Positions 14,029-57,760 of a stretch of 64,000 bases of DNA are shown piece by piece. The DNA comes from Leisingera daeponensis (GTDB taxonomy: Bacteria; Pseudomonadota; Alphaproteobacteria; Rhodobacterales; Rhodobacteraceae). The stretch covers positions 124,001 to 188,000 of the forward strand of contig NZ_JAHVJA010000003.1 in assembly GCF_019801465.1 (NCBI RefSeq). The letters run 5' to 3'. The notes beneath the pieces were generated by a model that worked only from the letters and a program-made list of their open reading frames with translations, was not told the DNA's origin and searched no databases. The translations under genes and the position numbers were made by a program. Each line of letters opens with the position of its first letter. The stretch's first letter is position 1.

Positions 14029-14075
14029 GCGTTTCCAGGGTGCGGCAATGGCGGCGTTGCTAATGCACCGGTAAA

Positions 14076-14096
14076 TTGGTAAGGAAATTTTACCAA
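14076..14096. promoter_or_regulatory. Palindromic operator upstream of lldD, shared with glcD
   Basis: TTGGTAA-N7-TTACCAA, perfect 7-bp arms, 21-38 bp before the lldD start codon. The same palindrome with the same 7-bp spacing lies before glcD at 53804-53824. The GGT/ACC core is like FadR-subfamily GntR sites, but the wide spacing also fits a LysR T-N11-A box. The binding protein is not identified. Confidence 0.75.
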
Positions 14097-14117: not shown

Positions 14118-15284
14118 GTGCCGGTGATCACCAATATCAACGACCTGAAGCGCATCTATGAACGCCGGGTGCCCCGGATGTTCTATGACTATGCCGAAAG
14201 CGGCAGCTGGACCGAGCAGACCTTCCGCGAGAACACCTCGGATTTCGAGCGGATCCGCCTGCGCCAGCGGGTGGCGGTCGACATGACAGGGCGGACCACG
14301 GCAAGCCGGATGATCGGGCAGGACGTGGCAATGCCGGTGGCCCTGGCGCCGGTGGGGCTGACCGGCATGCAGCACGCCGACGGCGAGATCAAGGCGGCGA
14401 AGGCGGCTGGGGAGTTCGGGGTGCCCTTCACGCTCTCGACCATGTCGATCAACTCGATCGAGGAGGTGGCGGAGGCGACCTCCAAACCGTTCTGGTTCCA
14501 GCTTTATACCATGAAGGACGAGGATTATATCCGCCGCCTGATTCAGCGCGCTAAGGATGCGAAATGCTCGGCACTGGTGATCACGCTGGACCTGCAGATC
14601 CTGGGCCAGCGCCACAAGGACCTGAAGAACGGGCTGTCGGCGCCGCCCAAGCTGACCCCGAAAACCATCGCCAACCTGATGACCAAATGGGCCTGGGGCA
14701 TTGAAATGCTGGGCGCCAAGCGGCGCAACTTCGGCAATATCGTCGGCCATGTGCAGGGGGTCTCCGACACCTCGCAGCTTGGGGTCTGGACGGCGGAGCA
14801 GTTCGACCCGGCGCTGGACTGGGGCAAGGTCGAAAAGCTGATGGAGATGTGGGGCGGCAAGGTGATCCTGAAGGGGATCCTGGACGCCGAGGATGCACGC
14901 ATGGCCGCCAGGCTGGGCGCCGATGCCATCGTGGTTTCGAACCACGGCGGCCGCCAGCTGGACGGGGCGCTGAGCTCGATCCGCATGCTGCCGGAGATCA
15001 TGGATGCGGTCGGCGGCGACGTCGAGGTGCACCTGGACAGCGGTATCCGTTCCGGTCAGGACGTGCTGAAGGCGCTGGCGCTGGGCGCCACCGGCACCAT
15101 GATCGGCCGCGCCTTTGTCTATGGCCTGGGTGCAATGGGCCAGAAGGGCGTCAGCACGGCGCTGGAGGTGATTCGCAAAGAGCTGGATACTACCATGGCG
15201 CTGTGCGGAGAACGCTCTGTGGAGGGACTGGGGCGCCACAATCTGCTGGTGCCGCAGGATTTCGGCGGGCGCTGGCAGGAATAA
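14118..15284 (+). CDS. lldD: FMN-dependent L-lactate dehydrogenase / alpha-hydroxy-acid oxidase
   Basis: 388 aa. FMN TIM-barrel oxidising L-lactate (or another 2-hydroxy acid) to pyruvate at the inner membrane. Family marks: FYDYAESGSWTEQTF, PVALAPVGLTGMQHADGE, FWFQLYTMKDE, VITLDLQILGQRHKDLKNG, the catalytic-His motif VVSNHGGRQLDG, and LDSGIRSGQDVLKALALGA. I chose GTG at 14118, which has GGGAGAGA before it. The longer open frame back to 14076 would start inside the operator palindrome. Some TIM-barrel relatives act on mandelate or glycolate, so lactate is the best but not the only substrate. Confidence 0.9.
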   Translation: MPVITNINDLKRIYERRVPRMFYDYAESGSWTEQTFRENTSDFERIRLRQRVAVDMTGRTTASRMIGQDVAMPVALAPVGLTGMQHADGEIKAAKAAGEFGVPFTLSTMSINSIEEVAEATSKPFWFQLYTMKDEDYIRRLIQRAKDAKCSALVITLDLQILGQRHKDLKNGLSAPPKLTPKTIANLMTKWAWGIEMLGAKRRNFGNIVGHVQGVSDTSQLGVWTAEQFDPALDWGKVEKLMEMWGGKVILKGILDAEDARMAARLGADAIVVSNHGGRQLDGALSSIRMLPEIMDAVGGDVEVHLDSGIRSGQDVLKALALGATGTMIGRAFVYGLGAMGQKGVSTALEVIRKELDTTMALCGERSVEGLGRHNLLVPQDFGGRWQE

Positions 15285-53034: not shown

Positions 53035-53757
53035 TCACGAAACCGTGTCCCCTTGGCTTTCGGGCGGGATGCGCAGCAGGATAGCGCGTGAATGCGAGGC
53101 GAATTCCCGCCGGTACAGCACCGCGAGGGTGATCAGAGCCGCACCTGCCAGCGGCAGTGCACCTGCCAGCCATGCGACGGCGGCCAGCGCGAAGTATGTT
53201 GACCTCATGCCCCGGTTGAAGCTGCGTGCGGCGGTGATGCTGATCTCAGCGGCCTGCGCGGCGCGGGGGTAAGCAAGGTCATGGCCGGGATCATTCGGCA
53301 CCGCAGCCATCAGCACTGAGCAATATCCGAACAGCCGGTGCGCCCAAACGTATTTCAGAAATGCGTTGGACAGGAACAGCAGAACTGTCAGGATTTTCAC
53401 CTCCCAGACAAAGGCGGGGATGCTGTCCTGGATCAGGTCTTCGGCAATGCCTGCCAGCTGCTCGGTGTTGCCGATCAGCGCCAGCCCTCCGCCGATGGCG
53501 ATCATCGCGGCAGAGGCAAAGAAAGCGGTGCCCTGGCGCAGGTTGCCGACCAGCTGGGCATCAAAAATCCGCGGATCGCGCTCCACCATCCGTTTCATCC
53601 AGTCGCGCCGGAAATCAGCCATCAGCCAGGAAACGGAAGGCCGCCCTGCGGGCGGGTTTTCGATGCGCCAGCCGATCCACAGCCAGCCCGCGATCAGCAG
53701 GGTCAGCGCAGCGAGGTCAAAAAGGGAAAACTGGGTCAGACGGTCAGGCCAAATCAT
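53035..53757 (-). CDS. DUF599 membrane protein
   Basis: 240 aa with about four membrane helices. Family marks: WMKRMVERDPRIFDAQLVGNLRQGTAFFASAAMIAIGGGLALIG near residue 53, then FLKYVWAHRLFGYCSVLMAAVPN and ARSFNRGMRSTYFALAAVAWLAG. Function unknown. It is 35 bp upstream of the exported protein on the same strand and divergent from glcD. Confidence 0.85.
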   Translation of the reverse strand: MIWPDRLTQFSLFDLAALTLLIAGWLWIGWRIENPPAGRPSVSWLMADFRRDWMKRMVERDPRIFDAQLVGNLRQGTAFFASAAMIAIGGGLALIGNTEQLAGIAEDLIQDSIPAFVWEVKILTVLLFLSNAFLKYVWAHRLFGYCSVLMAAVPNDPGHDLAYPRAAQAAEISITAARSFNRGMRSTYFALAAVAWLAGALPLAGAALITLAVLYRREFASHSRAILLRIPPESQGDTVS

Positions 53758-53803
53758 GGCCTGAACCTAGCGCGGCAATCTGCCCCTTGCCAGACGCATT
53801 TAA

Positions 53804-53824
53804 TTGGTAATATTATTTTACCAA
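53804..53824. promoter_or_regulatory. Palindromic operator upstream of glcD, same as at lldD
   Basis: TTGGTAA-N7-TTACCAA with TATTATT as spacer, ending 13 bp before the glcD start. Identical arms and spacing to the site at 14076-14096. Overlap with the ribosome-binding region suggests repression. Confidence 0.75.
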
Positions 53825-53837
53825 ACAGGAGAGCCCG

Positions 53838-55286
53838 ATGGAAATGCCATCCCCGAACCCCGCCGTTCTGGCCCGCAAGGCGCGGCTTGCCGCGCGGCTG
53901 CAGTCGGTGCTGCCGTCCGACGCGGTGATCCAGGACGAGGCAGAAACGCGGGCCTATGAATGCGATGCGCTCACCGCCTACAGGTGCCCGCCGCTGCTGG
54001 CGGTTCTGCCGAGAACCACACAGGAAGTTTCCGCGGTGCTGCGGATCTGCCACGAGGAAGGCGTGCCGGTGGTTCCGCGCGGGGCGGGCACCTCGCTTGC
54101 GGGCGGAGCGCTGCCGACAGCGGATTGTGTGATCCTGGGCGTGGCCCGGATGAACGAGGTGCTGGAGACCGATTACCGGAACCGCATTATCCGGGTGCAG
54201 ACCGGCCGCACCAACCTGAGCGTCTCCGGCGCGGTGGAAGAGGAGGAGTTCTTTTACGCTCCCGACCCGTCCTCACAGCTGGCCTGTGCCATTGCCGGCA
54301 ATATCGCGATGAACTCCGGCGGCGCGCATTGCCTGAAATACGGGGTGACCACCAACAACCTGCTGGGCGTGACCATGGTGATGATGGACGGCACCGTGGT
54401 GGAGATCGGAGGTGCCCATCTGGACGCTGGCGGGCTGGATCTTCTGGGGGTGATCTGCGGCAGCGAGGGGCAGTTGGGCGTGGTGACCGAAGCCACCCTG
54501 CGCATTCTGCGCAAGCCGGAGGGCGCCCGGCCGGTGCTGATCGGTTTTGACAGCAACGAGGTGGCGGGCGCCTGCGTATCGGACATTATCAAGGCAGGCG
54601 TGCTGCCGGTGGCCATCGAGTTCATGGACCGCCCCTGCATCGAGGCCTGCGAGGCCTTTGCCAAGGCAGGCTACCCGATGTGCGAAGCCCTTCTGATCAT
54701 CGAGGTCGAGGGCAGCCCGGCGGAAATCGATCACCAGCTGGGGCTGATCATCGGGATCGCCAAGTCCCACAACCCGGTGGAGCTGCGCGAGGCCGGGGAT
54801 GCGGATGAGGCGGCCCGCATCTGGCTGGGCCGCAAATCGGCCTTTGGCGCCATGGGGCAGATCAACGATTACATGTGCCTGGACGGGACTATCCCGGTGT
54901 CCTCGCTGCCGTTTGTGCTGCGCCGGATCGGCGAAATGAGCAAGGAATTCGGTCTCGACGTGGCCAATGTCTTCCACGCGGGCGACGGCAATATGCACCC
55001 GCTGATCCTGTTCGATGCCAACAAGCCGGGCGACCTGGAAACCTGCGAGGCCTTCGGAGCCGAGATCCTGAAGCTGTGCGTCGAGGCAGGCGGCTGCCTG
55101 ACCGGCGAACATGGAGTGGGGATCGAGAAGCGCGATCTGATGCTGCACCAGTACAGCGAGGCGGATCTGGAGGCGCAGCTGAAGGTCAAGGATGTGTTTG
55201 ACCCCAAGTGGCTGCTCAATCCGTCCAAAGTGTTTCCGCTGCCGGTGACCGAAGGCCGCCGGGCCGTGGCGCTGGCCGCGGAATGA
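53838..55286 (+). CDS. glcD: Glycolate oxidase FAD-linked subunit
   Basis: 482 aa. FAD-binding PP-loop GVPVVPRGAGTSLAGGALP, GNIAMNSGGAHCLKYGVTTNNLLG, GSEGQLGVVTEATLRI, and C-terminal NVFHAGDGNMHPLI and GEHGVGIEKRDLM. Oxidises glycolate (and often D-lactate) to glyoxylate with GlcE and GlcF at the membrane. Opens the glcDEF operon. Preceded by the operator shared with lldD. Confidence 0.96.
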   Translation: MEMPSPNPAVLARKARLAARLQSVLPSDAVIQDEAETRAYECDALTAYRCPPLLAVLPRTTQEVSAVLRICHEEGVPVVPRGAGTSLAGGALPTADCVILGVARMNEVLETDYRNRIIRVQTGRTNLSVSGAVEEEEFFYAPDPSSQLACAIAGNIAMNSGGAHCLKYGVTTNNLLGVTMVMMDGTVVEIGGAHLDAGGLDLLGVICGSEGQLGVVTEATLRILRKPEGARPVLIGFDSNEVAGACVSDIIKAGVLPVAIEFMDRPCIEACEAFAKAGYPMCEALLIIEVEGSPAEIDHQLGLIIGIAKSHNPVELREAGDADEAARIWLGRKSAFGAMGQINDYMCLDGTIPVSSLPFVLRRIGEMSKEFGLDVANVFHAGDGNMHPLILFDANKPGDLETCEAFGAEILKLCVEAGGCLTGEHGVGIEKRDLMLHQYSEADLEAQLKVKDVFDPKWLLNPSKVFPLPVTEGRRAVALAAE

Positions 55287-55311: not shown

Positions 55312-55332
55312 AAGTATTTCCGGAAAGATGAA
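55312..55332 (+). repeat. Third copy of AGTATTT-N4-AAAGATGAA, overlapping the glcE start
   Basis: AGTATTT-ccgg-AAAGATGAA, matching the elements at 8977-8997 and 9015-9035 except for the 4-bp centre. The ATG inside it is the first possible start codon of glcE, and just upstream is a GGGGGCTAGCCCCC hairpin. Confidence 0.6.
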
Positions 55333-56434
55333 GATGATGACACCAGGGAGCGAGGCGGAACTGGCCGAAGCCATTGCAGGCGCAAACGGGCCACTCTGCA
55401 TTCAGGGCGGCGGCAGCCGCGGGCTGGCGGTGGAGGGGGACGTTCTGAGCACCCGCGGATTGTCGGGTGTGGAGCTTTATGAGCCCGGCGCGCTGACACT
55501 GGTGGTCAAGGCGGGCACGCCCGTTGCCGAGGTTGAAACGCTGCTGGCCGCGCAAAACCAGCAGCTGGCCTTTGAGCCGATGGACCACCGCGGGATGCTG
55601 GGCACCGAGGGCGAGCCGACCATTGGCGGGGTGATTGCTGCAAATGTCTCCGGTCCCCGGCGCATCCAGGCTGGCGCGGCGCGCGATCACCTGCTGGGCG
55701 TGCGGTTCGTGGATGGCAGCGGCCAGGCGGTGAAAAACGGCGGCCGGGTGATGAAAAACGTGACCGGCTATGACCTGGTCAAGCTGATGTGCGGCGCCCA
55801 TGGCACGCTAGGGGTGCTGACGGAAGTCTCGCTCAAGGTGCTGCCGCGGGCAGAGGCCTCTGCGACCGTGACCGTGACCGGTGTCGATCTGCCCGGTGCG
55901 ATCCGGATGATGTCGGCGGCTTTGGGCTCCCCTTATGATGTCACCGGTGCGGCCTATGACGCGGACACTTACCAGGTGCATGTCCGGGTGGAAGGGTTTC
56001 AGGATTCCGCCGCTTACCGCAGCGCCAAGCTGGTCGAACTGCTGTCGCCATCCGGGCTGGCGGAGGTGCGGGAGGATGCCGGAGTCTTGTGGAAGGGCAT
56101 TCGCGACGTTTCTGCCTTTGACAGCCGGCCGGGCGATATCTGGCGGATCTCGGTGAAGCCGTCGGATGCGGCGGATCTGGCGCCTCGGCTGGAGGCTGAA
56201 GCGCTGCAGTTCGATTGGGGCGGCGGGCTGATCTGGGCGCTGGTGCCGGATGGCACCGATCTGCGCGCCCGTATCAATGTGCCGGGCCATGCCACGCTGG
56301 TGCGGGCCTCGCAGGACACCCGTGCGCGGCTTGGGGTCTTCCAGCCGCAGCCCGCACCGCTGGCGGCCATCTCCGCGGGGCTGCGGAGCCAGTTCGATCC
56401 GCGCAGCATCCTCAACCCGGGACTGATGGGGTAA
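55328..56434 (+). CDS. glcE: Glycolate oxidase subunit GlcE
   Basis: 368 aa. FAD-binding type-4 fold shorter than GlcD: PLCIQGGGSRGLA, AFEPMDHRGMLGTEGEPTIGGVIAANVSGPRRIQAGAARDHLLGVRFV, GRVMKNVTGYDLVKLMCGAHGTLGVLTEVSLKVLP. C-terminal SIL-NPGLMG. The first ATG lies inside a repeat element. ATG 55334 or 55337 are alternatives. Part of glcDEF, 41 bp after glcD and 3 bp before glcF. Confidence 0.94.
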   Translation: MKMMTPGSEAELAEAIAGANGPLCIQGGGSRGLAVEGDVLSTRGLSGVELYEPGALTLVVKAGTPVAEVETLLAAQNQQLAFEPMDHRGMLGTEGEPTIGGVIAANVSGPRRIQAGAARDHLLGVRFVDGSGQAVKNGGRVMKNVTGYDLVKLMCGAHGTLGVLTEVSLKVLPRAEASATVTVTGVDLPGAIRMMSAALGSPYDVTGAAYDADTYQVHVRVEGFQDSAAYRSAKLVELLSPSGLAEVREDAGVLWKGIRDVSAFDSRPGDIWRISVKPSDAADLAPRLEAEALQFDWGGGLIWALVPDGTDLRARINVPGHATLVRASQDTRARLGVFQPQPAPLAAISAGLRSQFDPRSILNPGLMG

Positions 56435-56437
56435 GTT

Positions 56438-57760
56438 ATGCAGACCACATTCACCGAAGAACAGCTGCAAGACCCTGGCACCAAACGCGCCAATGAAATT
56501 CTGCGCACCTGCGTGCATTGCGGTTTCTGCACCGCGACCTGCCCGACCTATCAGGTGCTGGGCGACGAGCTCGATTCCCCGCGCGGCCGCATCTACCTGA
56601 TCAAGGACATGCTGGAGAACGAGCGGGTGCCGGACGCCAAAACCGTCAAGCACATCGACCGCTGCCTCAGTTGCCTGGCCTGCATGACCACCTGCCCCTC
56701 GGGCGTGCACTACATGCACTTGGTGGATCATGCGCGCGCCTATATCGAAAAGCACTATGACCGCCCATGGAGCGACCGTGCCTTGCGCTGGCTGCTGGCC
56801 CGGATCCTGCCCTATCCGGGACGGTTCCGGCTGGCGCTCTTGGGGGCCAAGCTTGCGAAGCCGTTCAAGGGGCTGCTGCCGGACGAACGGCTGCGCGCGA
56901 TGCTGGACATGGCGCCCGAAACCATCCCGCCGGTCAGCCGCAATGACGATCCGCAGAGCTTTGCCCCCGCCGCGCCGCGCAAGAAGCGCGTGGCGCTGAT
57001 GACCGGCTGCGCCCAGAGGGCGCTGAACACCGATATCAATGACGCCACCATCCGCCTGTTGACCCGGCTGGGCTGCGAGGTGGTGGTGGCCGAGGGCGCG
57101 GGCTGCTGCGGCGCGCTGACCCACCACATGGGACGCGAGGACGAGAGCCACGCCACCGCGGCCAAGAACATCCGCGCCTGGGCGGCTGAGATGGACGGGC
57201 AGGGGCTGGACGCCATTGTCATCAACACCTCCGGCTGCGGCACCACGGTCAAGGACTACGGCCACATGTTCCGCAACGCGCCGCTGGCAGCAGATGCGGC
57301 TCGGGTGTCTGGCATCGCGATGGATATCTCCGAATTGCTGATGCAGCTGGACCTGCCCGGGGGCGCAGAAAAGGGGCTGACCGTGGCCTACCACGCCGCC
57401 TGCTCGCTGCAGCACGGCCAGCAGATCAAGACCCACCCAAAGACATTGCTGAAACGTGCTGGCTTCAGCGTGGTAGAGCCCGCCGACAGCCACCTCTGCT
57501 GCGGCTCGGCAGGCACCTACAACCTGATGCAGCCGGAAATCTCAGCTCAGCTGAAGGCGCGCAAGGTCAGGGCGCTGGAGGCCAAAGAGCCCGACGTGAT
57601 CGCTGCGGGCAACATTGGCTGCATGATGCAGATCGGTTCCGGCACGGAGGTGCCGATTGTGCATACGGTGGAGCTGCTGGACTGGGCAACAGGCGGCCCG
57701 CAGCCGCCTGCGCTGACGGCACCGGGCAGGCGGGCGCCGGAGGTACCCATCCTGCGCTGA
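56438..57760 (+). CDS. glcF: Glycolate oxidase iron-sulfur subunit
   Basis: 440 aa. Two 4Fe-4S motifs: CVHCGFCTATCPTY and CLSCLACMTTCPSG, then CCG-type repeats (GAGCCGALTHHMG, SHLCCGSAGTYNLMQ) of the heterodisulfide-reductase-like domain. Transfers electrons to the quinone pool. Confidence 0.96.
   Translation: MQTTFTEEQLQDPGTKRANEILRTCVHCGFCTATCPTYQVLGDELDSPRGRIYLIKDMLENERVPDAKTVKHIDRCLSCLACMTTCPSGVHYMHLVDHARAYIEKHYDRPWSDRALRWLLARILPYPGRFRLALLGAKLAKPFKGLLPDERLRAMLDMAPETIPPVSRNDDPQSFAPAAPRKKRVALMTGCAQRALNTDINDATIRLLTRLGCEVVVAEGAGCCGALTHHMGREDESHATAAKNIRAWAAEMDGQGLDAIVINTSGCGTTVKDYGHMFRNAPLAADAARVSGIAMDISELLMQLDLPGGAEKGLTVAYHAACSLQHGQQIKTHPKTLLKRAGFSVVEPADSHLCCGSAGTYNLMQPEISAQLKARKVRALEAKEPDVIAAGNIGCMMQIGSGTEVPIVHTVELLDWATGGPQPPALTAPGRRAPEVPILR

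Follow-up and report, generated by a model that had tools for sequence, protein, structure and literature searches.

Two palindromes with identical arms, which precede the L-lactate dehydrogenase gene lldD and the glycolate oxidase genes glcDEF of Leisingera daeponensis, are very probably operators of one repressor of hydroxy-acid oxidation, which an inducer would release. The candidate repressor is a GntR/FCD protein encoded on contig C6 of the same genome (the C6 regulator). Its probable targets are lldD, glcDEF, a gene for an AEC-type permease and the regulator gene itself. Environmental bacteria draw on glycolate and lactate as major small carbon sources. In most of the family genomes sampled, a precisely defined operator can be linked to a single probable regulator, which would be a clear example of a FadR-type protein whose operator spacing is unusual. 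Systems of this kind are known; the regulator candidate, its own operator, the permease target, the tolerance for TTGGTHA arms and the -35/-10 context are added here to what an earlier note had proposed. The features are collected in Table 1, in which the window is the whole stretch of 64,000 nucleotides that was analysed.

Table 1. Operators, genes and promoter elements. Bare numbers are window positions; the others give genome, contig and position.
Feature	Position	Strand	Basis
Operator before lldD, TTGGTAA-GGAAATT-TTACCAA	14076..14096	.	exact match
Operator before glcDEF, TTGGTAA-TATTATT-TTACCAA	53804..53824	.	exact match
Third conserved operator (L003), TTGGTCA-N7-TTACCAA	G000:C10:47528-47548		few bp before AEC-type permease gene
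Candidate regulator, GntR/FCD (FadR-subfamily) protein, 256 aa	G000:C6:99377-100144	-	outside the window
lldD, FMN-dependent L-lactate dehydrogenase family	14118..15284	+	FMN_dh 441 bits
glcD, glycolate oxidase FAD subunit	53838..55286	+	FAD_binding_4 and FAD-oxidase_C
glcE, glycolate oxidase FAD-binding subunit	55328..56434	+	NCBIfam GlcE 270 bits, under cut-off 284
glcF, glycolate oxidase iron-sulfur subunit	56438..57760	+	NCBIfam GlcF 468 bits, above cut-off 333
TTGCTA, probable lldD -35 element	14057..14062	+	TTGC kept at same offset in 25 family lldD sites; function inferred
TAAGGA, possible lldD -10 region inside operator	14080..14085	+	17-bp spacer from 14057-14062; inferred from spacing
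TTGCCA, probable glcD -35 element	53787..53792	+	kept over 39 family glcD sites; function inferred
TATTAT, possible glcD -10 region in operator core	53811..53816	+	18-bp spacer; inferred

The palindromes and their target genes

An earlier note on this DNA had reported two palindromes with equal arms and spacing, had judged their chance occurrence very unlikely and had proposed a lactate/glycolate regulon. The first two points hold, and the third is supported. The 7-base arms and the N7 length are the same in both sites, and the spacer letters differ (GGAAATT versus TATTATT). Between the end of the site and the start codon lie 21 bp at lldD, which starts with GTG, and 13 bp at glcD, which starts with ATG. 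The genome-wide scan that the note had called for revealed no scatter: among 4,890,691 bases the exact motif TTGGTAA-N7-TTACCAA occurs twice, both times in the window, and the reversed-pattern control is absent. An independent-base estimate from the composition of the window gives about 0.0019 exact matches per 4.89 Mb; a shuffle of the window allowed three mismatches, and its expected value of 0.48 is no measure for the exact match. When two mismatches were permitted, the source genome gave six matches versus five for the control, no excess beyond the closer sites, and three places found in this way (L004-L006) were dropped as lying at chance level.

In the genus, the exact site was found in 20 of 21 genomes, 16 of which carry it twice, and every genome matches if one mismatch is allowed. 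It occupies the same place in all ten lldD loci examined and was found at 11 glcD loci, those of the source genome included, and in each of these 21 loci the target gene follows directly 3' of the site. Also, a one-mismatch site, TTGGAAA...TTACCAA, is common to three genus genomes (G002, G015 and G018; L183-L185). In the family, sampled as 198 genomes with one per genus, 63 genomes contain the exact site and none the reversed pattern. Outside the source genome there are 73 exact sites in 62 genomes, and 72 of them precede hydroxy-acid genes, namely glcD (39), lldD (25), the TRAP transporter gene dctP (4), malate synthase G (3) and dld (1); for L096, L128 and L108 the query had been taken from the site's own target and so matched itself, and the gene families were assigned by a separate check. 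The remaining site (L095, genome G156) has no such gene adjacent. At class level the motif was matched in 8 of 240 genomes, three of which belong to the source family. The motif is short, which would suit a chance or generic repeat; with two sites found versus about 0.002 expected, and with related genes behind 72 of the 73 sites in the family, that explanation is already refuted and retains practically no probability.

The assignment of the window genes is supported by their protein families. LldD scores 420.6 bits with the NCBIfam model for L-lactate dehydrogenase (NF008398; cut-off 376) and stays below the exception model for LldD (371 of 550), and GlcD reaches 518 bits with its model, under the equivalog cut-off of 897.

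A third conserved site, TTGGTCA-N7-TTACCAA, is present in 20 of 21 genus genomes. In 15 of the 21 loci checked it accompanies an AEC-type permease gene (PF03547), and in all 15, which represent at least nine different genomes since some loci are duplicates, it ends 5-8 bp before the permease start. The permease is a candidate for the transport of lactate or glycolate. Only five sites in the source genome come within one mismatch of TTGGTHA-N7-TDACCAA: those at lldD, glcD, the permease gene and the regulator gene, and one beside a ParB-like gene (called by eye), which looks like something other than a part of the regulon. Palindromes resembling TAGGTCAG...CTGACCAA are repeated on many genus contigs, among the matches listed. 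One lies at L323 1501-1521 (G000:C8:50151-50171), next to TTTCGCGCGCGAAA, between two genes read by eye, one UDP-glucose dehydrogenase-like and the other ParB/RepB-like. Such elements may serve in the partition of plasmids or chromids, outside the hydroxy-acid regulon.

The candidate regulator and its distribution

The earlier note had placed the regulator outside the window, and there is indeed no FCD-type GntR gene among the window genes. A profile search for FCD-GntR proteins in the 73 family-site regions (up to about 20 kb, frames of at least 150 aa) gave matches in L087 only, and there is no FCD gene within 10 kb of the exact sites of G252, G334, G438 (four sites) and the family genome G239. 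The L087 frames (65% like the own FCD protein L041; 31% like L032; an over-long frame with a 60-aa match) were rejected, as none resembles the C6 regulator. An FCD-like frame also lies upstream of glcD in the L306 region.

Because linkage to the family sites gave no regulator, it was found through relatives outside the family. In G250, a genome of another family, an FMN_dh gene (lldD-like, read by eye) and a divergent GntR gene have the exact motif between them, and in G378 the same GntR gene adjoins the exact motif. The source genome encodes 21 FCD regulators, and the C6 protein is the one most similar to these two proteins (43-44% identity, 159-166 bits), the next reaching 54-59 bits. It consists of an N-terminal GntR winged helix (PF00392, 71.8 bits) and a C-terminal FCD domain (PF07729, 83.5 bits), both above cut-off, which is the domain composition of the FadR subfamily. 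Its FCD domain keeps the D/H/H/H residues, taken as a metal site, which fits a carboxylate effector held by a metal as in the family. The regulator gene is unlinked to its targets, glcDEF being located on contig C3.

The promoter of the C6 gene contains GTGGTCA-TATATCT-TGACCAA 17 bp before the ATG (TTGGTCA-N7-TGACCAC if read the other way). Regulator promoters of the genus carry a site scoring 13/14, mostly GTGGTCA-N7-TGACCAA, at 16-17 bp before the ATG in 21 of 21 cases. Among 29 further orthologue loci of the family, 18 score at least 12/14 within 150 bp and the other 11 score lower; over 80 orthologue loci, partly from the same genomes, 73 score at least 11/14 and seven stay below 11. Autoregulation thus appears widespread in the genus and not universal in the family. 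Since the arms of the regulator's own site read GGTCA instead of GGTAA, the case for shared recognition rests on co-occurrence and on sites with mixed arms, namely TTGGTCA-N7-TTACCAA before the permease gene and TTGGTAA...TGACCAA in G016.

Eight genus genomes contain a second GntR paralogue (about 40% identity; L215-L222), and the promoters of these eight paralogues have no such site. In the one locus examined, at L220 1222-1242, CTGGTAA-ATATTGT-TGACCAA stands before a dctP gene that is divergent from the paralogue, perhaps a duplicated switch for the TRAP transporter. A 91% identical copy of the C6 regulator was found in a record titled Nocardioides marinus (L335), which is probably mislabelled or contaminated.

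Comparison of the family genomes establishes the sites, their targets and the fact that the sites are present or absent together with this regulator's orthologue. Orthologues of the C6 regulator (E <= 1e-70; lowest listed identity 53%) were detected in at least 146 of the 198 genomes; up to 13 first-look candidates were scored per genome, so some orthologues counted as absent may have been missed. Of the 63 genomes that carry the exact motif, 62 have an orthologue, versus 84 of the 135 others (Fisher p 2e-9, kinship ignored). The one exception, G156, has its exact motif away from the usual targets and no glcD match at 1e-170 among the matches listed. A point against the link is that 84 genomes have an orthologue and lack the exact motif, of which 40 were looked at. 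Where glcD promoters lack the exact motif, a near-motif (at least 12/14 within 150 bp of glcD) was present in 40 of 40 genomes with the orthologue versus 1 of 20 without it (p 1e-14, kinship ignored), and shuffled glcD promoters average 7.6-8.8. The left arm is TTGGTTA in 33 of these 40 near-motifs. The single exception among the 20, G189 (L281), has a 13/14 site before glcD. These 20 comprise all of the 52 orthologue-less genomes with a glcD place among the matches listed. The 40 combined the top 20 by rank with 20 from further down among about 97 eligible genomes without the exact motif at glcD, with G115 and G211 of the eligible lower range left out. Two of the 60 stretches, L263 and L299, end at contig ends yet contain the required 150 bp. 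Shared ancestry could inflate the co-occurrence of motif and orthologue.

These distributions also bear on whether a different regulator, of the LysR type or another of the 21 FCD proteins, binds the window sites. The LysR box is T-N11-A, which the motif formally fits, and one of the 21 FCD regulators was profiled against the motif. Such a regulator is nevertheless improbable: presence of the GntR orthologue predicts the glcD site with hardly an exception in the sample described above, the promoter of the C6 gene keeps the same layout across the genus, and a divergent GntR gene stands beside such sites in Paracoccus denitrificans, P. zhejiangensis, a Sulfitobacter plasmid and G250. Of the two regulator types guessed in the earlier note, GntR is supported and LysR is not required. 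There is about an even chance that this one GntR orthogroup, present in some three quarters of the sampled family genera and apart from GlcR, LldR and GlcC, serves as a general 2-hydroxy-acid switch that governs the oxidation of L-lactate, D-lactate and glycolate together with uptake and the use of glyoxylate, and that reads half-sites set wider than in classical FadR-type operators.

Promoter layout and proposed mode of action

Upstream regions of family glcD and lldD genes, aligned on the operator, share a TTGC sequence. At glcD the TTGCCA starts 16 bp before the site in 39 family regions and 17 bp before it in the window, with 1.1-1.3 bits of information at TTGC; at lldD, TTGC starts 19 bp before the site, with 1.2-1.4 bits at TTG over 25 family regions. 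Other upstream positions mostly carry 0.5 bits or less, except for the bases next to the site. Since the conserved TTGC looks like a -35 element, the -10 region would lie inside the operator, and TAT is kept at the TATTAT position in family glcD sites. In 59 of the 64 glcD and lldD loci of the family, 12-30 bp separate the end of the operator from the start codon. An operator over the -10 region is a repressor position, so repression is likely, as far as the sequence can tell.

The GntR protein might instead be an activator here, or both activator and repressor, as in the case of Escherichia coli GlcC, a 36% identical relative that is described as activating glcDEF (PMC11323563). This is unlikely, given the site over the presumed -10 region, its close and regular distance from the start codon and the finding that the Paracoccus protein GlcR represses (PMC11323563).

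Another reading of the palindrome is an RNA hairpin near the ribosome-binding site that exerts translational control, and a 7-bp stem with a 7-nt loop so close to the start codon would be suitable. It is highly improbable, however. The TTGGTTA left arm common in near-motif glcD promoters mostly goes with a TTACCAA right arm, so that the sixth pair is lost; the same pair is missing in the permease site (TTGGTCA...TTACCAA); and the conserved spacing from the -35-like sequence would have transcription begin within the site or downstream of it.

We infer direct binding, repression and an effector. A dimer of the C6 regulator would bind two TTGGTHA half-sites, the arm variation that is tolerated, with GT and AC 11 bp apart. 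Bound over the -10 region, it would exclude RNA polymerase and therefore repress. A 2-hydroxy acid such as glycolate or lactate, or a close product, would release the regulator, and uptake and oxidation would be switched on together. The FadR-DNA complex serves as the comparison for the placement of the dimer; the half-sites are 8 bp further apart than those of the FadR type, and therefore the dimer would sit on the DNA differently. A DUF599 gene (window 53035-53757) is divergent from glcD and starts 46 bp from the operator. Some of the family loci also have it next to glcD, so it might be co-regulated.

Comparison with known regulators

The E. coli proteins GlcC, LldR and PdhR resemble the C6 regulator in belonging to the FadR subfamily, in acting on related pathways and in having TGGT/ACCA-type half-sites. 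They differ in spacing: GT and AC are 11 nt apart in both window sites, whereas the distance given for the FadR subfamily is usually 3 nt, and 2 nt in some groups (PMC4494728). That source lists exceptions, so a spacing of 2-3 nt is typical and not strictly defining. The C6 regulator also stays under the NCBIfam equivalog cut-offs for PdhR (202 of 330 bits), LldR (186 of 311) and GlcC (149 of 301). In alphaproteobacteria, GlcC motifs are stated to differ in spacer length from those of beta- and gammaproteobacteria (PMC5343134, 2016). The alphaproteobacterial GlcC motif may have the same architecture as the window sites, and GT-N11-AC may therefore already be catalogued. Among the openly available papers listed in a literature search, judged by titles and the beginnings of abstracts, none was recognised as naming the C6 regulator or its motif.

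In a tree of 63 proteins, for which the bootstrap had not settled and long branches were flagged, the C6 orthologues form a clade of their own (99/99), joined by the genus paralogues (98/90). GlcR-type proteins and the G250 and G378 regulators form another clade (99/93), next to which stands E. coli GlcC (90/54). The C6 regulator thus lies outside the clade of P. denitrificans GlcR, and a single part of the tree, with weak support, unites both clades with E. coli PdhR, LldR and GlcC.

The nearest described system is GlcR (Pden_4400) of P. denitrificans, a glycolate-responsive repressor of glcDEF, which binds the glc promoter region less in the presence of glycolate (PMC11323563). The main text of that paper contains neither the word operator nor TTGG, and no GlcR site is named in its section 6. 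A plasmid record of another P. denitrificans strain has TGGTCT-GAAAATT-ATACCA between glcD and the GntR gene divergent from it, which is taken as glcR by position. The encoded protein is 41% identical to the C6 protein (162 bits; the next FCD protein reaches 62 bits). Similar sites adjoin glcR-like genes in P. zhejiangensis and on the Sulfitobacter plasmid, and GT-N11-AC is kept in all three. In the stretches fetched for four other plasmid glcD regions (two from Sinorhizobium, one each from NT-25 and Haematobacter) there was no FCD gene. On the Sulfitobacter plasmid (L253) the glcR-like gene and glcDEF stand beside transposition genes, so plasmids can carry the switch and its enzyme along together.

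GlcR and the C6 regulator are thus alike in being GntR/FCD proteins with glcDEF as a target, and the imperfect GT-N11-AC palindrome in the glcR-glcD gap, presumably the GlcR site, resembles the operators described here. They differ in that glcR adjoins glcDEF whereas the C6 regulator gene is unlinked, in sequence (41% identity), in their separate clades and in the arms of their sites. In addition, sites of the C6 type also target lldD and, elsewhere, dld, transporter and malate synthase genes.
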